IMG/VR virus record: IMGVR_UViG_3300032311_000739
Coordinates: 1 to 21,822 of that record
Direction: 5' to 3' (one strand)
Source of the DNA: a virus
Length of the DNA: 21,822 nucleotides
Under the pieces are notes generated by a model that was not told the origin of the DNA, made no database searches, and saw nothing but the letters and a program-made list of their open reading frames with translations. The translations under genes were made by a program, and so were the position numbers. Positions 3,604-20,327 of the stretch are shown here, one piece after another. The first letter of the stretch is position 1. Every line of letters starts with the position of its first letter.

Positions 3604-3632
3604 TAAAGGCCATCAGTAATGGTGGCCTTTTT
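3604..3632. terminator. Terminator between converging genes
   Basis: GGCCATCA (3608-3615), loop GTAA, then TGGTGGCC (3620-3627) forms an eight-pair stem with one G-U pair. It is flanked by AAA on the left and TTTTT on the right, so it can act rho-independently for gp32 on the plus strand and possibly on the minus strand for the gene ending at 3631. Confidence 0.8.
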
Positions 3633-5187
3633 AAATCAATATAGTATTTAAATTCTTATAAGTACGATCAAAATTAGAAATCTCAGGAGTAATAACATTA
3701 GTAGAACTTTGATTAATGTTTGATATATTATTTCTTGGTGCTATCACATTATTAACATTAGATTTTTCTTTTGGAGAAATAAATTCCCTATTCATATCAG
3801 TAAATTGATCAGCATTAGGTAAAGACGTTTTTTGTAGGGGAATACCATCTCTCATAGGTTTAATTTTTTGACTATCATCAACAGAAGGATTTAATATATT
3901 ATTATCCATTGATTTTTTATCTTCAATAATAGCTTTTCTTCTTTCAATATCTGATATTAAACTATTTGTTAATTTTCTTTTACCATATCCTAAAGCAAGT
4001 CCACCAGCAATAGCAGCTCCAGTGCCTAAAGCTGCAGGTGTTGTTAATAATCTTGCTGCGCTACCTAAAAGACTTCCACCTGAACCTCCACCTCCCATAA
4101 ATTTCATACCTTTTAAAAATGTACTTATACCACCAGTAAAGCTATTAGATAATGATTTAACACTATTACCTATAAAATTAAATGATTTGTTTAAAGGTGT
4201 TATACCTTTTGTCAAAGAAGATATTTCTCCTCCTAATCCTTTAAAACTTGAAAACATTTCTTTAGGAAAAGATAAAGTATCAACAAAAGATTGTTTCATA
4301 TCTCTAAACATTGTACCAATAGGGCCTTGTACTTTTTCTTCATTACTATTGTTATTGATACCTGCTTTTTCTTTTTTCTTTGTTAAATTTTGTTCTAATT
4401 TTATTAATCTTTCTTTTTTTTCTATAACTTCTTTTTCTTGTTTTCTGGTTAAAGTATCTTTTTTTAAAAGATTATCTATTTCTTGATTTATTTTAATCTT
4501 TTGACTCTGTAAATATCTTTCACTAATTTCTATTTTTTTTTTAAATTGTTGTTCTTGTTTAAATGTCAAAACTCTTAAAGTATTTGTTTTTTCATCTAAA
4601 TGTGTATTGATGCCTTGTTGTCTTAAATTATCTCTTTGAGCTAAACGTTCTTCTTTTATTTTTTCTTTAACATCATTTTCTTTAGAAGTGAGTTCTTTTT
4701 GAAATTTAGCATTATTGATCATCTTATCTATGTTAGTGCCCATAATTTGAGCAATCTGTTTAATATCAAGACCAAATGCTTTTTCCAATTCTTCTGCTCT
4801 ATCTAAACCAGAATCTCTAGCATCTTCATTGGTAGATGTTAATAATTGAATAACTCTTTTAACTTCTACATCAATTGGTAGAAATTGTTTCATTATAGAT
4901 TTTGTAAGTGATTGTGTTTCTAATATTACAGAAGATTGTAATGATTTAAATAAATCAGTTATCTCTTTAGTGCCTAAAGAATTTTTTCCTTGTGATTCAG
5001 AAATTGCTTTAAATGATTTTACTAAATCTAATTTAGGTAATGATTGTTTTATTTGAAAAACATCTTTATCAGCTTTATCTTGTTTTTTTTCAATACTAGT
5101 AATTTGTCTGCTCATTTTACCACCTAATACAGACTTTGCCGCTTCTCTTGATAGTATTTCATCCGTATCGTCTATAAAATCAGCCAT
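3631..5187 (-). CDS. Probable tail tape measure / tail structural protein, 518 aa
   Basis: The protein is mostly alpha-helical: a long charged, coiled-coil-like stretch at about residues 160-275 (many Lys, Glu and Gln), then a Gly-rich hydrophobic zone at about 355-405 (GGGGSGGSLLG, AALGTGAAIAGGLALGYG), then a polar tail. Long helices plus membrane-like hydrophobic segments are the hallmark of tape measure proteins, which set tail length and enter the cell envelope at DNA injection. T4 gp29 (590 aa) has this job and is encoded in the same cluster as genes 26, 51, 48 and 54. No sequence match to gp29 was recognised directly, so the call rests on architecture and context. It begins four bases after the holin-like gene, with no clear SD. 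Confidence 0.55.
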   Translation of the reverse strand: MADFIDDTDEILSREAAKSVLGGKMSRQITSIEKKQDKADKDVFQIKQSLPKLDLVKSFKAISESQGKNSLGTKEITDLFKSLQSSVILETQSLTKSIMKQFLPIDVEVKRVIQLLTSTNEDARDSGLDRAEELEKAFGLDIKQIAQIMGTNIDKMINNAKFQKELTSKENDVKEKIKEERLAQRDNLRQQGINTHLDEKTNTLRVLTFKQEQQFKKKIEISERYLQSQKIKINQEIDNLLKKDTLTRKQEKEVIEKKERLIKLEQNLTKKKEKAGINNNSNEEKVQGPIGTMFRDMKQSFVDTLSFPKEMFSSFKGLGGEISSLTKGITPLNKSFNFIGNSVKSLSNSFTGGISTFLKGMKFMGGGGSGGSLLGSAARLLTTPAALGTGAAIAGGLALGYGKRKLTNSLISDIERRKAIIEDKKSMDNNILNPSVDDSQKIKPMRDGIPLQKTSLPNADQFTDMNREFISPKEKSNVNNVIAPRNNISNINQSSTNVITPEISNFDRTYKNLNTILI

Positions 5188-5191
5188 TTAA

Positions 5192-5488
5192 TTATTTCGT
5201 TTCTTCGTTGTGTTGTGCTTGTAGTTTCTTATCTTCTATTTTCTCTTGTGTTCTACCATATGCTGATATACCTAATACAGCACCCATACATATATGAAAG
5301 AATCCAGCGCCTTGTAATGTTAATGGGTTCCATTGTGTAAACACCACTTGTTTTAAATATGTTGCTTGTGCTAAATTCCATAGTATAGGAAATATAACAA
5401 AATCAAAAGCACATACTGCTAGATATAACCAACCCATAGCTGGTCGCCATTTAGTATTAAAACTTGTTTCTTTATTCTGCGAACTCAT
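5192..5488 (-). CDS. Holin-like small membrane protein, 98 aa
   Basis: Two hydrophobic segments are visible (about 17-40, AMGWLYLAVCAFDFVIFP onward, and 58-78, LQGAGFFHICMGAVLGISAYG). They are preceded by NTKWRPAMGW and followed by GRTQEK and a charged tail. The WRP-GW opening and the LG--x-R-x-EK close resemble the three-TM holin family found in gene transfer agents and marine T4-like phages. Holins permeabilise the inner membrane for lysis. Its ATG overlaps the stop of the gp51-like frame (TAATG), so it is translationally coupled to the tail-chaperone region. No endolysin is seen beside it. It could instead be a tail-associated membrane protein. Confidence 0.6.
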   Translation of the reverse strand: MSSQNKETSFNTKWRPAMGWLYLAVCAFDFVIFPILWNLAQATYLKQVVFTQWNPLTLQGAGFFHICMGAVLGISAYGRTQEKIEDKKLQAQHNEETK

Positions 5489-5676
5489 TACTTCTCCCTT
5501 TGTTTTTTGTCGTTTTCTTCTTTAATATAATTAACTAGTAAAGATACGTAAATATCTCTCTCCCACGGTATCATATTTTCAATCTCAGATAATGAATATT
5601 TATGATGTTGAACTAACGCAAAATTAATTTCGAAATATGCCTCTAGCGTATTGTGGGCGAGGCTAATTCGAAAAAA
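5488..5676 (-). CDS. 51: gp51-like -1 frameshift extension of gp26
   Basis: In the -1 frame relative to gene 26, a TGA at 5677-5679 is followed by 62 open codons to the TAA at 5488-5490. No ATG, GTG or TTG occurs until a Met about two thirds of the way in, so the frame has no usable start of its own. The peptide contains ALVQHHKYSLSEIENM then IPWERDIYVSLLVNYIKEE, which resembles the conserved end of tail/baseplate assembly chaperones (gp51 and GT-like proteins). Slippage on the heptamer at 5670-5676 would produce a gp26-gp51 fusion of about 297 residues (237 plus 60). The function as a baseplate-hub assembly catalyst is inferred from T4 gene order (26-51). Confidence 0.75.
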   Translation of the reverse strand, partial: FFRISLAHNTLEAYFEINFALVQHHKYSLSEIENMIPWERDIYVSLLVNYIKEENDKKQREK

Positions 5677-6380
5677 TCAGATATTCCTGATAATTTAACT
5701 TTGTTAACAACATTAGTTTTAGGGTTTTTAACCTCAACTTCATGTTGTAATTTAGGCATAGTATCAAAGAATTTTCTAATCTTAACAAACGAATCTTGTG
5801 GTAGATTTTCAATAAATTCTTTCAATTCATCTCTAGTAACGTCTTTTGAAGGATATATTTTATCTTCTTCATAGACATGATCTATACAATCAATTAAGAT
5901 ATTAAAAAAAGATTCTAATTCTGCGTTTTGTATATCTTTACCAATATCATAATTTTTTAATGTAGGATATCTTAAAACTAAACCTAGATTTCTTTTTTCA
6001 TCTATTAATACTTTATTTGTATGGTTATCATCAACATGTACTTCTATTTTAGTTAAATCAACTTCAGTTTCAGCATAAGTTATACCGTCATCTTGGCATA
6101 TAGTTCTAAACTTAACAATCTCAGACACAGATTTTGCTCTAATATTTAAAAAAATATATTCTATATCAAAAATTGGTAATTGATCTACTTTTAAAGCATT
6201 GAATGTACAGGCATTAACTATTTCTTTTAATGCTTGAACCATTTGCTTATTGTCTCCAGTTTCTAAAGCAATAAACAATATTTTTTCTTCTTTAACTAAA
6301 AATGGTCGGTATTTAACTTTTATATCTTGTGATGGTAGTATCAACTCATAAGTTGGTATTTCCACTTTTGGTAATGTCAT
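5643..6380 (-). CDS. 26: Baseplate hub / tail assembly protein gp26
   Basis: The 245-residue protein matches the T4-like baseplate gp26 family: an N-terminal PKVEIPTYELILPS, then KYRPFLVKEEKILFIALE, a central FDIEYIFLNIRAKSVSE, and an FIENLPQDSFVKIRKFFDTMP helix. In T4, gp26 (about 208 aa) takes part in assembling the baseplate hub. An SD (AAGGAG) lies just upstream of the ATG at 6380, and an AATAAATA late box at 6404-6411 gives a short leader. The last codons contain a slippery heptamer, and the zero frame ends eight residues later in SPTIR. That makes it the short product of a probable pair, like lambda gpG/gpGT. Confidence 0.92.
   Translation of the reverse strand: MTLPKVEIPTYELILPSQDIKVKYRPFLVKEEKILFIALETGDNKQMVQALKEIVNACTFNALKVDQLPIFDIEYIFLNIRAKSVSEIVKFRTICQDDGITYAETEVDLTKIEVHVDDNHTNKVLIDEKRNLGLVLRYPTLKNYDIGKDIQNAELESFFNILIDCIDHVYEEDKIYPSKDVTRDELKEFIENLPQDSFVKIRKFFDTMPKLQHEVEVKNPKTNVVNKVKLSGISDFFELASPTIR
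5670..5676 (-). promoter_or_regulatory. Slippery heptamer T TTT TTC (programmed -1 frameshift site)
   Basis: On the minus strand the gp26 codons GAT TTT TTC contain T TTT TTC in the correct X XXY YYZ phase. After a one-base slip both tRNAs re-pair with TTT. The -1 frame has a TGA immediately before the heptamer and is open for 62 codons after it. I could not confirm a downstream stimulatory RNA structure. Confidence 0.8.
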
Positions 6381-6403: not shown

Positions 6404-6411
6404 TATTTATT
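6404..6411 (-). promoter_or_regulatory. Late promoter box AATAAATA for gene 26
   Basis: The minus strand reads AATAAATA, fitting the NATAAATA late motif of marine T4-like phages, 23 bases before the gp26 ATG. The box overlaps the stop codon of the upstream gp54 gene. A good SD follows it. Confidence 0.55.
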
Positions 6412-7411
6412 ACAAATTTAAAGGCGGGAAATTACCAAATGGAGGGAATACTCTTCCACCAGTAATACCACCAATAGGTATTTTTCGTTTTAATCCTTCT
6501 AACACATCAGAACCAGCTCTTCTCAATTCTGGTGGTAGTTTATTTAAAATGCCACCAAAAGCACCAAAACCACTTTTAACTGTTACATCTCTAAAGTTTG
6601 GTGAACCTAATTCTATATTACCCGATCTGTCTAAGAAATAATTAATCCAATATCTGAATGTAAAAGTAACAGTAAATGTTTGAACAGCATTGTTCTCATA
6701 ACTATATTCAACTGGACCTATTATTTTAGGGAAACATTCAAATAGTTTTACAGCATAGGTCATATCATCTCTTTCATTTCTGCTTTGAAAACTACCTAAT
6801 TGAAATATATTAACGTCTGATACGTAATTGTCATAAAAATTATAATTATGCGATTTGGTACTAAATGCGGCTGCTTGCCATAATTCAAAATATGATCTTT
6901 CTCTTAAAAACTTATCACAATAAAATGTTGCTTGTATATCTTCCGATTTATAATCGAAAGCAATTTTTCTAGCAGGACCGTGTGTTCTAATTTCTTTAGT
7001 CTCGATTGATCTATTAGGCATGGCTATAGCACTACAGAATGCTCTAACTCTACGACCATTTGTAGTTTGAACACTTGTAAGTTGAGATTGATCCAAAAAT
7101 GTTTGTGAAGTTTCACCTGTTGTAGCAGACACACCTAATTGACCAACATCATCAATGCCTTGTAAATTGCCTAATAATCCTTGATTGTTACCTTTTGGTA
7201 ATTGAAATTCAACATAGAATCTAGCCTTACGAGCAAAACCTTCTGCTTCATTAACATAAGATTGAAAGCGACCAATAGTAGTTTCTGAATTGCCGCCCGC
7301 CTTTTGTCTAAAACGTGGATCACTTTCAACATTTTCTAAAGAATTGTCTCTAGGCAGACCTATTCTAATATCCATTCCTGCTACTCTTATACCGCCTCTT
7401 AATATTGCCAT
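6410..7411 (-). CDS. 54: Baseplate-tail tube initiator gp54-like
   Basis: The 333-residue protein is close to T4 gp54 in length (320 aa). gp54 caps the central hub and starts tail tube polymerisation. The C-terminal half has the beta-rich pattern seen in tube-fold proteins: FCSAIAMPNRSIETKEIRTH, then DIQATFYCDKFLRERSYFELWQ, then YSYENNAVQTFTVTFTFRYW. The last part is typical of tail-tube-fold proteins in T4-like phages. The ATG overlaps the previous gene's stop (TAATG). It sits next to genes 26 and 51 as in the T4 hub cluster, although gene 48 (its partner) is here on the opposite strand at 8461. Confidence 0.8.
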   Translation of the reverse strand: MAILRGGIRVAGMDIRIGLPRDNSLENVESDPRFRQKAGGNSETTIGRFQSYVNEAEGFARKARFYVEFQLPKGNNQGLLGNLQGIDDVGQLGVSATTGETSQTFLDQSQLTSVQTTNGRRVRAFCSAIAMPNRSIETKEIRTHGPARKIAFDYKSEDIQATFYCDKFLRERSYFELWQAAAFSTKSHNYNFYDNYVSDVNIFQLGSFQSRNERDDMTYAVKLFECFPKIIGPVEYSYENNAVQTFTVTFTFRYWINYFLDRSGNIELGSPNFRDVTVKSGFGAFGGILNKLPPELRRAGSDVLEGLKRKIPIGGITGGRVFPPFGNFPPLNL

Positions 7412-13373: not shown

Positions 13374-13379
13374 TTGTAT

Positions 13380-13712
13380 ATGGCAGATATCATTACATTA
13401 ACTGATAAAGCAAAGAACTATCTTATTGGTATTATGGCCAAGTCTGGTAAAAGACATGTATTTCTACAGGCCAAAGGTGGTGGTTGTGCGGGATTTAAAT
13501 ATGATTGGTCTTATCCGAATGAGATTGATTTAGATAGTCAAGATACTTACATTCATATGGATGAAGGATATTCTTTAGTGATTGATCGTTATAGTGCTTT
13601 TAAATTAATAGGCATGAAAATTGATTATATTGAATCTATCTCTGGTTCTAGTTTAGAAATATCAAATCCAAATGCTACATCTACTTGTGGATGTGGTGAG
13701 TCTTTTTCTTAG
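13380..13712 (+). CDS. hesB: HesB/IscA-type iron-sulfur cluster carrier
   Basis: The 110-residue protein is an A-type Fe-S carrier: Cys36 in GGGCAGFKY, and Cys103 and Cys105 in TCGCGESF, the classic C-x(n)-C-x-C ligands. The core strand ITLTDKAKNYL and the SSLEISNPNA segment are also typical. Such proteins pass clusters to client enzymes. HesB-like genes are common auxiliary genes in marine T4-like phages. I chose ATG 13380 over a TTG two codons upstream because the family starts there and the late-like box fits. It overlaps the converging hydroxylase gene by a few bases. Confidence 0.93.
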   Translation: MADIITLTDKAKNYLIGIMAKSGKRHVFLQAKGGGCAGFKYDWSYPNEIDLDSQDTYIHMDEGYSLVIDRYSAFKLIGMKIDYIESISGSSLEISNPNATSTCGCGESFS

Positions 13713-14512: not shown

Positions 14513-14944
14513 TTAATTGCACCATGATTGTTTAGCTTCGCCATAATATTCTCTAGCGTAACCATTTTTAATTAATAATGATCTTAGACTTTGTCCATCT
14601 AATATAATATCACCTAACACGCGACCACCAAACTTATCCCAATCAGCAATAGCTACTTCTATTTTCTTAGCATTAGCAATTGATTTCTTTGTAAATTCTG
14701 TAGCAGCTAGACCTTTAGTGTTTTCAGATTCACATTTAGCACGGAATCCTTTTTCTGGTGTATCAACACCATAGACACGAATAGATAATTCTTTTTTAAG
14801 AGGTTCTGGTAAGAAATTTGCTTCAAATGCTACTGTATCACCATCTAATACTCTGGTTAATTTATAATTGTATTTTTTCATTTCTACATCCTTCGCTAAC
14901 GCCAAAGTAGGTAGAATTATTAATATTAATAATAATCTTTTCAT
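14513..14944 (-). CDS. Exported SNase-like (thermonuclease) nuclease
   Basis: Residues 1-17 are a signal peptide (MKRLLLILIILPTLALA). The rest is a staphylococcal-nuclease fold with all catalytic positions recognisable by family alignment: Asp36 in LDGDTV, Arg56 in SIRVYG, Asp61 and Glu64 in VDTPE, and Arg108 in FGGRVL. Two cysteines (71 and 142) might form a disulfide after export. SNase enzymes are calcium-dependent and cut DNA or RNA. The predicted location is periplasmic. It is first in an operon with three membrane micropeptides and a 2OG oxygenase, driven by a strong host-type promoter with almost no leader, which suggests early expression. Confidence 0.9.
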   Translation of the reverse strand: MKRLLLILIILPTLALAKDVEMKKYNYKLTRVLDGDTVAFEANFLPEPLKKELSIRVYGVDTPEKGFRAKCESENTKGLAATEFTKKSIANAKKIEVAIADWDKFGGRVLGDIILDGQSLRSLLIKNGYAREYYGEAKQSWCN

Positions 14945-15678: not shown

Positions 15679-15837
15679 ATGTACACAGACAGAATAAATG
15701 AGCCTCGGTATAATGCAGGCAATTTTCAAGAGTATGATTGCGAATGTGAATGGATAGAATGTATTTGGAATATTACTTACAAACAAATTGAATTAGTTAC
15801 GGCCTTTACTTATCCTTGGATCAAAAATTCTGTCTAA
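15679..15837 (+). CDS. Small hypothetical protein, 52 aa
   Basis: I chose ATG 15679 over an upstream in-frame ATG at 15628 because the latter lies inside the previous gene and a late box directly precedes 15679. The 52 residues are acidic and rich in Trp, Tyr and Cys (EYDCECEWIECIWNITYKQI). The gene converges on the receptor gene and overlaps its 3' end by 17 bases. Function is unknown. Confidence 0.6.
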   Translation: MYTDRINEPRYNAGNFQEYDCECEWIECIWNITYKQIELVTAFTYPWIKNSV

Positions 15838-17563
15838 ATCCAAATAAAAAATTTCTACCTAACTGATTATAACCATCAGGCCTTTCATATTTTTCATTTG
15901 TTATATTATTTAATTTACTATACAATACAATATTACCTAAAGTATAATCAGCAACCAAATCAAAAGTGCTTATTGAAGGCATATTTTTATTATTATATGT
16001 TATACTATCAATATCTAAATGAGAACCATAATAATTCCAGTTTGCTTTTAAAGATGTATTTTCAATCTTATTATAAGAAACTTCTAAATTATTAACCCAT
16101 TTAGGACGTCTTGCCAATTCTTTACCTTTACTATCTTCCGCTATTATAAATGTAGTTGAATTTTTTAAATCTAAATTTAATACATTATGTTTTAATTTTG
16201 TTTCAATACCTTTTCTTGTGCTTGTACCATTATCATTTTCATATGTATTATTTTTATATATTAATAGATTATTGATTTTACTTTCAAACACCGCAATATC
16301 AATAATTTTATTGTTATAACCTACTTCATAAGTTATACTTTTTTCTGGTATTAAATTAGAGTTACCTAAGAAACCATAGTTATCTTTACCATACATTTCG
16401 TATAGTGTGGGCATTTTATATCCCGTTGATACACTTGTTCTAAAACCATTATAAAAAAGACCGACTCTTTCCGTTAATTGATTATCAAAGTTACTTGGCA
16501 TATCATAGCGAGCCCCACCTGTTACAAATAATTCGTCAGATAAAAACTTACTAACATTAAAATAGTAACCATGATTTTCTCTTTTCTTATCTACGAAAGA
16601 AACATAATCATCTATGTTGGTATTGAATTTCGCATTTGTAAATGTATGTTCAGTACCTAAACTTATATCAGCAATTGTATGAAAAGTGTTTTTAGTTAAT
16701 AGAGTTTTAGCATTACTATCGTAAGTGTCTTTAACGCCTGATTTATTATATTCTCTATTGTGGTCTGTATTATTTAAAGTAAATTCAAAATCATTATTTT
16801 TTTGTAAAGATAGTTGTTGATTTTTAAAATTCCATAAACCAGAATAGTTTGTATTATCAGCACCACTGTCATCCAAATTTGTCTTATTGGTTTTATCTAT
16901 GAAATTTGTTTTTAAAAACCAATCATCTACTATACGAGAATCTGTTTGTAAAATGTAATTACGTGTTCTAAAAGAATCTGTTTCATTACCTTTTGGATAA
17001 ACACTTATACCATCACTAGTTTCATTTTCAATTTGTAAATCTATTATATGATTATCAATTTTTTTGCCTAGCTTAATTGTTTGTGTTTTAGTATTTTTAG
17101 AACCATAAGATAGATCAATCCAATTTTTATCATTAGCCTGAGTTTTCATATTAACAACGCCGCCGATTGCGTCAGGTCCATAAACACTTCCCATAGGGCC
17201 TTTGATAACTTCTAGTGATTGAACTCCTAAAAAATTATGTTGGCTTAAATCATCATTACCTGTAGGTGTACTGGCATCTTTAATTGGTATTCCGTTTAAA
17301 GTAAACAATGTATGATTTGAATTTGTACCACGTGTAAAAGTACTACTGAACTGGCCTTTTGGCCCATACTGTACAATGTTTGTGCTAGTTATATTTTTTA
17401 TATCATTTGGCTCTATAACGTCATAAGAATACGTTAATGGTAAATGTTCCTCTGCCGTTCTAAATGCTTGTATTGTAATTTGAGGAATATTTTCGTAAGA
17501 ATATTGTGAATATGAAGTATTGGTTAAGAATATGAATAATAATAATTTAATGAATAAACGCAT
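15821..17563 (-). CDS. TonB-dependent outer-membrane receptor, BtuB-like
   Basis: This 580-residue protein has a signal peptide (residues 1-20, MRLFIKLLLFIFLTNTSYSQ), a candidate TonB box (ITIQA, 29-33), a plug domain with TRGTNSNHTLFTLNGIPI (78-93) and VIKGPMGSVYGPDAIGGVVN (119-138), then a beta-barrel of alternating strands with aromatic ends. It finishes in GRNFLFGFRQNF, with the terminal Phe required for barrel assembly. Length is near E. coli BtuB (614 aa). It looks intact. Such receptors import cobalamin, siderophores or similar ligands using TonB energy; the ligand cannot be read here. It is unusual as a phage gene. It is preceded by an overlapping 36-aa membrane gene and a host-type promoter. 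Confidence 0.9.
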   Translation of the reverse strand: MRLFIKLLLFIFLTNTSYSQYSYENIPQITIQAFRTAEEHLPLTYSYDVIEPNDIKNITSTNIVQYGPKGQFSSTFTRGTNSNHTLFTLNGIPIKDASTPTGNDDLSQHNFLGVQSLEVIKGPMGSVYGPDAIGGVVNMKTQANDKNWIDLSYGSKNTKTQTIKLGKKIDNHIIDLQIENETSDGISVYPKGNETDSFRTRNYILQTDSRIVDDWFLKTNFIDKTNKTNLDDSGADNTNYSGLWNFKNQQLSLQKNNDFEFTLNNTDHNREYNKSGVKDTYDSNAKTLLTKNTFHTIADISLGTEHTFTNAKFNTNIDDYVSFVDKKRENHGYYFNVSKFLSDELFVTGGARYDMPSNFDNQLTERVGLFYNGFRTSVSTGYKMPTLYEMYGKDNYGFLGNSNLIPEKSITYEVGYNNKIIDIAVFESKINNLLIYKNNTYENDNGTSTRKGIETKLKHNVLNLDLKNSTTFIIAEDSKGKELARRPKWVNNLEVSYNKIENTSLKANWNYYGSHLDIDSITYNNKNMPSISTFDLVADYTLGNIVLYSKLNNITNEKYERPDGYNQLGRNFLFGFRQNF

Positions 17564-19964: not shown

Positions 19965-20064
19965 ACCAAAAAGAACAAGCATTGGACGTGGATTTCACAG
20001 CAAATGTATGATGAATAAACACAAAAGAAGAAGTTTTAAGAAATATAGAGGTCAAGGTAGATAA
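19915..20064 (+). CDS. Small highly basic protein, 49 aa
   Basis: The 49 residues are about one third Lys/Arg, with KPKRTSIGRGFHSK followed by MMNKHKRRSFKKYRGQGR. The YRGQGR end is, to my recollection, seen in short conserved proteins beside PAAR or gp25 genes of marine T4-like phages. The look is that of an RNA/DNA-binding or ribosomal-like peptide. It overlaps the 43-aa gene and its TAA overlaps the PAAR ATG (TAATG), so it is coupled to the spike tip gene. Confidence 0.65.
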   Translation: MARKVAGNTNASKKTSKPKRTSIGRGFHSKCMMNKHKRRSFKKYRGQGR

Positions 20065-20327
20065 TGCCAGGCGTTGCTCGCAAGAATAAAGACATAGCGG
20101 GCGGTGTTGCTATTGAAGGAAGTCAAAATGTTTTAGTAAATGGTGATGGTGTAGTTAGAATTGGAGATAAAGTAGCAAGCCACGGCTTACCTCCACATCA
20201 ACCAACGCCTCCTATGGTTCAAGGTTCACAAAATGTATTTGTAAATGGTATTGGTATAGTAAGAGCTGGTGATAAAGCAAATTGTAATCATAATATCACA
20301 GGTTCTTCAAATGTTTCAGTAAACTAA
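20064..20327 (+). CDS. PAAR-repeat spike tip protein
   Basis: The 87-residue protein shows the PAAR pattern of repeated short beta segments: GSQNVLVNGDGVVRIGDKV and GSQNVFVNGIGIVRAGDKA are near copies. His residues (HGLPPHQP, CNHN) and a Cys lie where the metal-binding tip is expected. PAAR proteins sharpen the gp5 beta-helix spike (T4 gp5.4). It is coupled to the basic peptide gene and is followed by gene 25. Confidence 0.9.
   Translation: MPGVARKNKDIAGGVAIEGSQNVLVNGDGVVRIGDKVASHGLPPHQPTPPMVQGSQNVFVNGIGIVRAGDKANCNHNITGSSNVSVN

Follow-up and report, generated by a model that had tools for sequence, protein, structure and literature searches.

Gene 26 of this marine T4-like phage carries near its 3' end a predicted programmed -1 ribosomal frameshift site, which almost certainly yields a long tail assembly chaperone beside a short one, as with the G and GT proteins of lambda and their counterparts in many further tailed phages. 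Most ribosomes translating gene 26, itself a putative tail assembly chaperone gene, would halt at the TAG codon and release a short form of 245 aa. A minority, we infer, stalled on U UUU UUC by a hairpin 6 nt downstream, would slip back by one base and go on to a 297-aa form, the last 60 residues of which correspond to the protein annotated as gp51 elsewhere. If lambda G/GT is a guide, the N-terminal part common to both forms may coat the tape measure protein, and the additional C-terminal part of the long form may recruit tail tube subunits. The finding pins down, in phages abundant in the ocean, a precise site and hairpin that can be put to the test.

Predicted slip site and hairpin in gene 26

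In the window (the whole stretch of 21,822 nucleotides that was analysed), gene 26 occupies positions 5643-6380 of the minus strand and its 3' end reads ...GGA ATA TCT GAT TTT TTC GAA TTA GCC TCG CCC ACA ATA CGC TAG. The slippery heptamer T TTT TTC lies in phase within GAT TTT TTC (5670-5676, minus strand), with a TGA stop of the -1 frame immediately 5' of it (5677-5679). From there the -1 frame is open for 62 codons (5676-5491) up to a TAA at 5490-5488, which overlaps the ATG (5488) of the next, holin-like gene to form TAATG. Its translation is FFRISLAHNTLEAYFEINFALVQHHKYSLSEIENMIPWERDIYVSLLVNYIKEENDKKQREK, and its first ATG, GTG or TTG is an ATG at codon 35 (5574-5572), directly 5' of PWERDIY. 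A slip would produce 237 + 60 = 297 aa, the -1 frame (5488-5676, minus strand) providing the C-terminal 60 residues of the putative long form (TAC-NC, lambda GT-like). An earlier note, made from the letters of this DNA, had described the in-phase heptamer, the stop directly before it, the 62-codon frame lacking a start until late, the TAATG end and products of 245 and about 297 aa, and all of these hold. The genes of the window contain in-phase T TTT TT at 7 of their 5464 codon positions, three of these in gene 26 itself; as in-phase T6 is not rare in such an AT-rich window, a single genome could not decide the matter, and conservation did.

Folding the RNA downstream of position 5670, which the earlier note had suggested without reporting a hairpin, revealed a stem-loop. 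Its 5' arm GCCUC (5659-5663, minus strand) begins 6 nt after the heptamer and is invariant in 24 of 24 near relatives, and its 3' arm GAGGC (5639-5643) contains a GAG that is invariant as a codon in the same 24. The whole segment (5629-5670) includes a lower CGAA/UUCG stem that overlaps the last base of the heptamer, and these 42 nt fold with -11.8 kcal/mol compared with -4.7 kcal/mol in dinucleotide shuffles (z -3.5). The initial window folds of 69-131 nt gave a z of only about -1, owing either to their long AU-rich flanks or to the loss of the lower stem. A heptamer of the form X XXY YYZ followed by a structure at 5-9 nt defines the dnaX-type signal, and the window shows this arrangement, with the hairpin at 6 nt.

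All five core pairs are invariant in the 24 divergent near relatives. The third positions in the stem are fixed (CTC, GAG and NGC, each in 24/24) although the codons could vary, and the third-position C of the codon preceding CTC is kept even where Ser is replaced by Gly or Cys. Covariation of pairs in this near group was not significant, which speaks neither for nor against the hairpin because the core stem never varies. When compared with random synonymous recodings of the same peptide, the fold was more stable in 48 of the 59 representatives (p<0.05, mean z -3.3), with weak support for a hairpin in Mosig, HTVC008M, the rhizobial phages and Mendera. In the cyanophage group this place is taken by another stem, in a different register (GUAUG.CUC/GAG.CAUAC), with a single compensatory pair, and S-N03 has a third stem type of 10 bp. 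A long-range pseudoknot between the loop CCCAC and the PWER codons (GUGGG) was considered and rejected, as changes of the loop base are not matched in the Pro codon and the pairing is missing from most relatives.

Upstream, AGGA (5685-5688, minus strand) forms a weak Shine-Dalgarno (SD)-like element 8 nt before the heptamer, at a place where the cyanophage group carries GGAGGG; the element is picked out by a position-specific peak of anti-SD pairing. This peak, about 15 nt before the heptamer, is owed mostly to the cyanophage GGAGGG and is weak in the window; in the corresponding recoding test, anti-SD pairing was significant in 5 of 59 representatives, with a mean z of -2.1 in the cyanophage group and -0.9 in the near group.

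The gene order around the site runs from a tail-tube-like gene (6410-7411, minus strand; phrog_45, 8e-40) through gene 26 and one holin-like gene of 98 aa, whose ATG overlaps the -1 stop (5192-5488, minus strand; PF11351, 25.7 bits against a cut-off of 24.8), to a 518-aa protein (3631-5187, minus strand), a candidate tape measure protein by its position. The 518-aa protein matched no PHROG or Pfam family and had no detectable similarity to the HTVC008M protein in the same position; the HTVC008M gene in the corresponding place matches tape measure families. Elsewhere the window encodes a HesB/IscA-like iron-sulphur cluster biosynthesis protein, likely an auxiliary metabolic gene (13374-13712, plus strand; PF01521), a Staphylococcal-nuclease-like protein with a signal-peptide-like N-terminus (14513-14944, minus strand; PF00565) and a PAAR-motif protein, probably a tail spike tip, which adjoins a gp25-like baseplate wedge gene (20064-20327, plus strand; PF05488). 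A TonB-dependent receptor with plug and beta-barrel (15821-17563, minus strand; PF07715 3e-13, PF00593 2e-26) is also present, an outer-membrane receptor gene being unusual cargo on a T4-like phage contig.

Conservation of the site and alternative explanations

Related loci were collected from three IMG/VR scans and from annotated phage records, and 59 representatives are related loci below 90% nucleotide identity. The 174 loci in which the end of gene 26 is intact, a set that leaves out four Ackermannviridae-type loci already seen to be without the heptamer, all carry an in-phase T TTT TT[C/T/G] close to that end, followed by an open -1 frame, 58-68 codons long in complete loci. The 0-frame stop follows the heptamer after 3 nt in 114 loci, 24 nt in 54, 0 nt in four and 6 nt in two. 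A start codon is absent in all 59 representatives from the stretch that runs from the upstream -1 stop to the slip, so that the heptamer and the start-less entry into the -1 frame, whose conservation in relatives the earlier note had put forward as a check, are both retained. The chance of finding T|TTT in all 59 from codon usage alone corresponds to a log10 P of about -17.9, with the representatives treated as independent, which they are not fully. The slip Phe is TTT even in GC-richer phages whose gene 26 otherwise mostly uses TTC for Phe (Synechococcus S-N03, Sinorhizobium phiN3 and phiM9, Rhizobium P10VF, Ochrobactrum ORM_20 and Stenotrophomonas Mendera). The heptamer is found in Kyanoviridae (pelagiphages included), in Vibrio and Aeromonas Straboviridae, in Pootjesviridae and in Menderavirus; named carriers of both heptamer and open -1 frame include Vibrio ValKK3, Aeh1 and Sinorhizobium/Rhizobium and Stenotrophomonas phages, and Pseudomonas phage Astolliot (Otagovirus) has both as judged by eye.

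Mismatches in pairwise comparisons cluster at wobble (third) positions, those of the 0 frame as far as the heptamer and those of the -1 frame beginning with the codon that follows it. This switch is present both in loci with an immediate 0-frame stop and in those with eight further 0-frame codons, and since the coding constraint moves to the -1 frame at the slip, the eight-residue 0-frame tail is little constrained. Together with the heptamer in 174/174 loci and the hairpin, the frame switch strongly supports the proposal of the earlier note that a programmed -1 slip joins gp26 to a gp51-like frame.

The same comparisons bear on other readings of the locus. Homopolymer runs are error-prone, and an assembly or sequencing error might split one open reading frame into two; the identical frame break in 174 records, isolate genomes included, and a 0-frame stop at a fixed distance of 3 or 24 nt in 168 of the 174 refute this reading through many concordant records. 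Slippage of RNA polymerase on the T run, which would give mixed mRNAs, agrees with the nature of the site and with the 7-8 T seen in a few relatives. The T count is usually exactly six, however, and transcriptional slippage generally requires longer runs; codon phase, a hairpin with a 6-nt spacer and the SD-like element of the cyanophages point to the ribosome instead, leaving polymerase slippage extremely unlikely.

A separate gene 51, translated from its own and perhaps non-canonical start by re-initiation after the gene 26 stop, also appears very unlikely, although public records annotate gp51 on its own and TAATG or TGATG overlaps occur in rhizobial, Vibrio and Mendera phages. The earlier note had named a conserved start codon of gene 51 as a finding that would speak against the slip. 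The cyanophages do keep an ATG as the sixth codon of the -1 frame, and separate initiation may just conceivably occur in that group, but this ATG lies inside the stem, and their GGAGGG, about 25 nt before it, is too far away to serve it. Across the 59 representatives the first ATG of the -1 frame is scattered over codons 4-34 (counted from zero), and the window has none before codon 35 of 62. The start thus shifts from lineage to lineage, whereas conservation of the peptide sets in at the codon immediately after the slip. A separate gene would moreover leave heptamer and hairpin without a role, and T4 has the same region fused in frame.

In public records gp51 starts at differing internal ATG codons (eleven of our loci), and it is omitted from the annotation of S-CAM1, ORM_20 and Aeh1; its N-terminal part is consequently misannotated or missing.

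Gene 26 product and the T4 proteins gp26 and gp51

The 245-aa product of gene 26 matches PF12322 (1.3e-59) and phrog_150 (6.4e-65) and is the putative short form (TAC-N, lambda G-like). Its AlphaFold2 model has a pLDDT of 84.5, with values below 50 for residues 238-245, the last eight, which follow the slip and are predicted to be disordered. The best match of this model among solved structures is 2ob9, the HK97 tail assembly chaperone (HK97 gp14), over residues 1-85 (Z 7.8, rmsd 3.7, 83 aligned); the next match has a Z of 5.0, and the Z of 7.8 is below the safe level of the tool. Foldseek alone ranked 2ob9 21st with an E of 4, which makes the structural evidence moderate. Profiles of gp26 and gp51 searched against the sequences of solved structures gave no convincing match, and a PDB fold search with the gp51 model returned nothing of interest among the matches listed.

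The peptide encoded by the -1 frame matches phrog_634 (baseplate hub assembly catalyst; 8.4e-29) and the C-terminal end of phrog_150 (baseplate hub). The match to phrog_150 extends over all of T4 gp51, whose C-terminus also matches phrog_634, and T4 gp26 matches phrog_150 minus the C-terminal end. In the alignment, T4 gp51 passes in frame through the slip and along the whole fusion, T4 gp26 stops at the slip (...RGLKEFFELL), and T4 gene 26 ends in TTC TTT, without a heptamer. As judged from these alignments, T4 gp26 and gp51 are paralogues, a short form and an in-frame long form, not two halves of one protein, and T4 uses two paralogous genes for what the phage in the window would get from one. 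The earlier note was right that T4 genes 26 and 51 are adjacent; they lie, however, on opposite strands, and it had not recognized them as paralogues. Homology and modelling strongly support gp26 and gp26-51 as the probable short and long tail assembly chaperones, and the lambda G/GT analogy, also drawn earlier, is likewise supported because T4 gp51 homology spans the whole fusion and the gp26 model resembles the HK97 chaperone.

Ackermannviridae and some other phages, seven loci in all (Kuttervirus EP75, Klebsiella Croc, Dickeya Ds16CZ, Vibrio YC, K362 and SUMAE, and Pseudomonas Cygsa01), have a gene 26 end of the form xTT TTC Axx TAA without the T6 heptamer, and conservation of their -1 frame continues past this point. 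The four Ackermannviridae-type loci left out of the set of 174 are among the seven. The stop overlaps an ATG (TAATG) in several of them and an ATT in EP75 and Klebsiella Croc.

It is tempting to speculate on a wider picture, which we put forward tentatively and with some doubt. A dnaX-like cassette of U6 heptamer, 6-nt spacer and hairpin may have been kept across several T4-like families, with the hairpin rebuilt in different registers, in which case hundreds of annotated gp51 genes would not be separate genes. The cassette would then have been lost in the T4 branch, which has two genes, and in Ackermannviridae and some others a non-canonical slip site, xTT TTC A, would have taken its place.

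Relation to known frameshift systems

According to Atkins et al. (2016, PMC5009743), conservation of G-T frameshifting is widespread among phages with long tails, "except T4". The earlier note knew of no description of a slip in this gene pair, but such slips had already been described: according to two papers that cite the work, Vladimirov, Gautam and Davidson (2022, Virology 566:9-15) identified tail assembly chaperone genes of T4-like phages, the PRFect paper citing it for short and fused long chaperone copies in some of these phages (PMC10885494) and the Pseudomonas phage Adele paper crediting it with poly-T slip sites in T4-like TAC-N genes (PMC12846349). As far as these citing accounts go, the gene in the window belongs to the same family and is an additional member. 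The predicted slip is therefore not new in kind but a further, well documented case of the known T4-like chaperone frameshifts, to which hairpin and frame-switch data are added here. In the literature searched, mostly without subscription papers, we found no description of the hairpin or of pelagiphage-like members.

In lambda G/GT, as predicted for the window, ribosomes slip by -1 towards the 3' end of a tail gene and so make a short major and a long minor chaperone, upstream of a presumed tape measure gene. The two differ in that gene 26 belongs to the T4-like baseplate family PF12322, and in their heptamers, that of lambda being G GGA AAG. T4 gp26 and gp51 are homologous to the proteins of the window over their whole length, but in T4 they come from two genes, the long form being made without a frameshift. 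With E. coli dnaX the window shares the order of a possible SD-like element, heptamer, short spacer and hairpin; the heptamer is A_AAA_AAG there and U_UUU_UUC here, and the SD-like element is clear here only in the cyanophage group. In E. coli, U_UUU_UUA and U_UUU_UUU are reportedly less slippery than A_AAA_AAG (PMC5009743), a point that weighs against the proposed slip. The chaperones of Vandenendeviridae and Andersonviridae likewise have a conserved -1 slip at a T-rich site at the end of TAC-N, although in other phage families and with a GTTTTT motif (PMC12846349).
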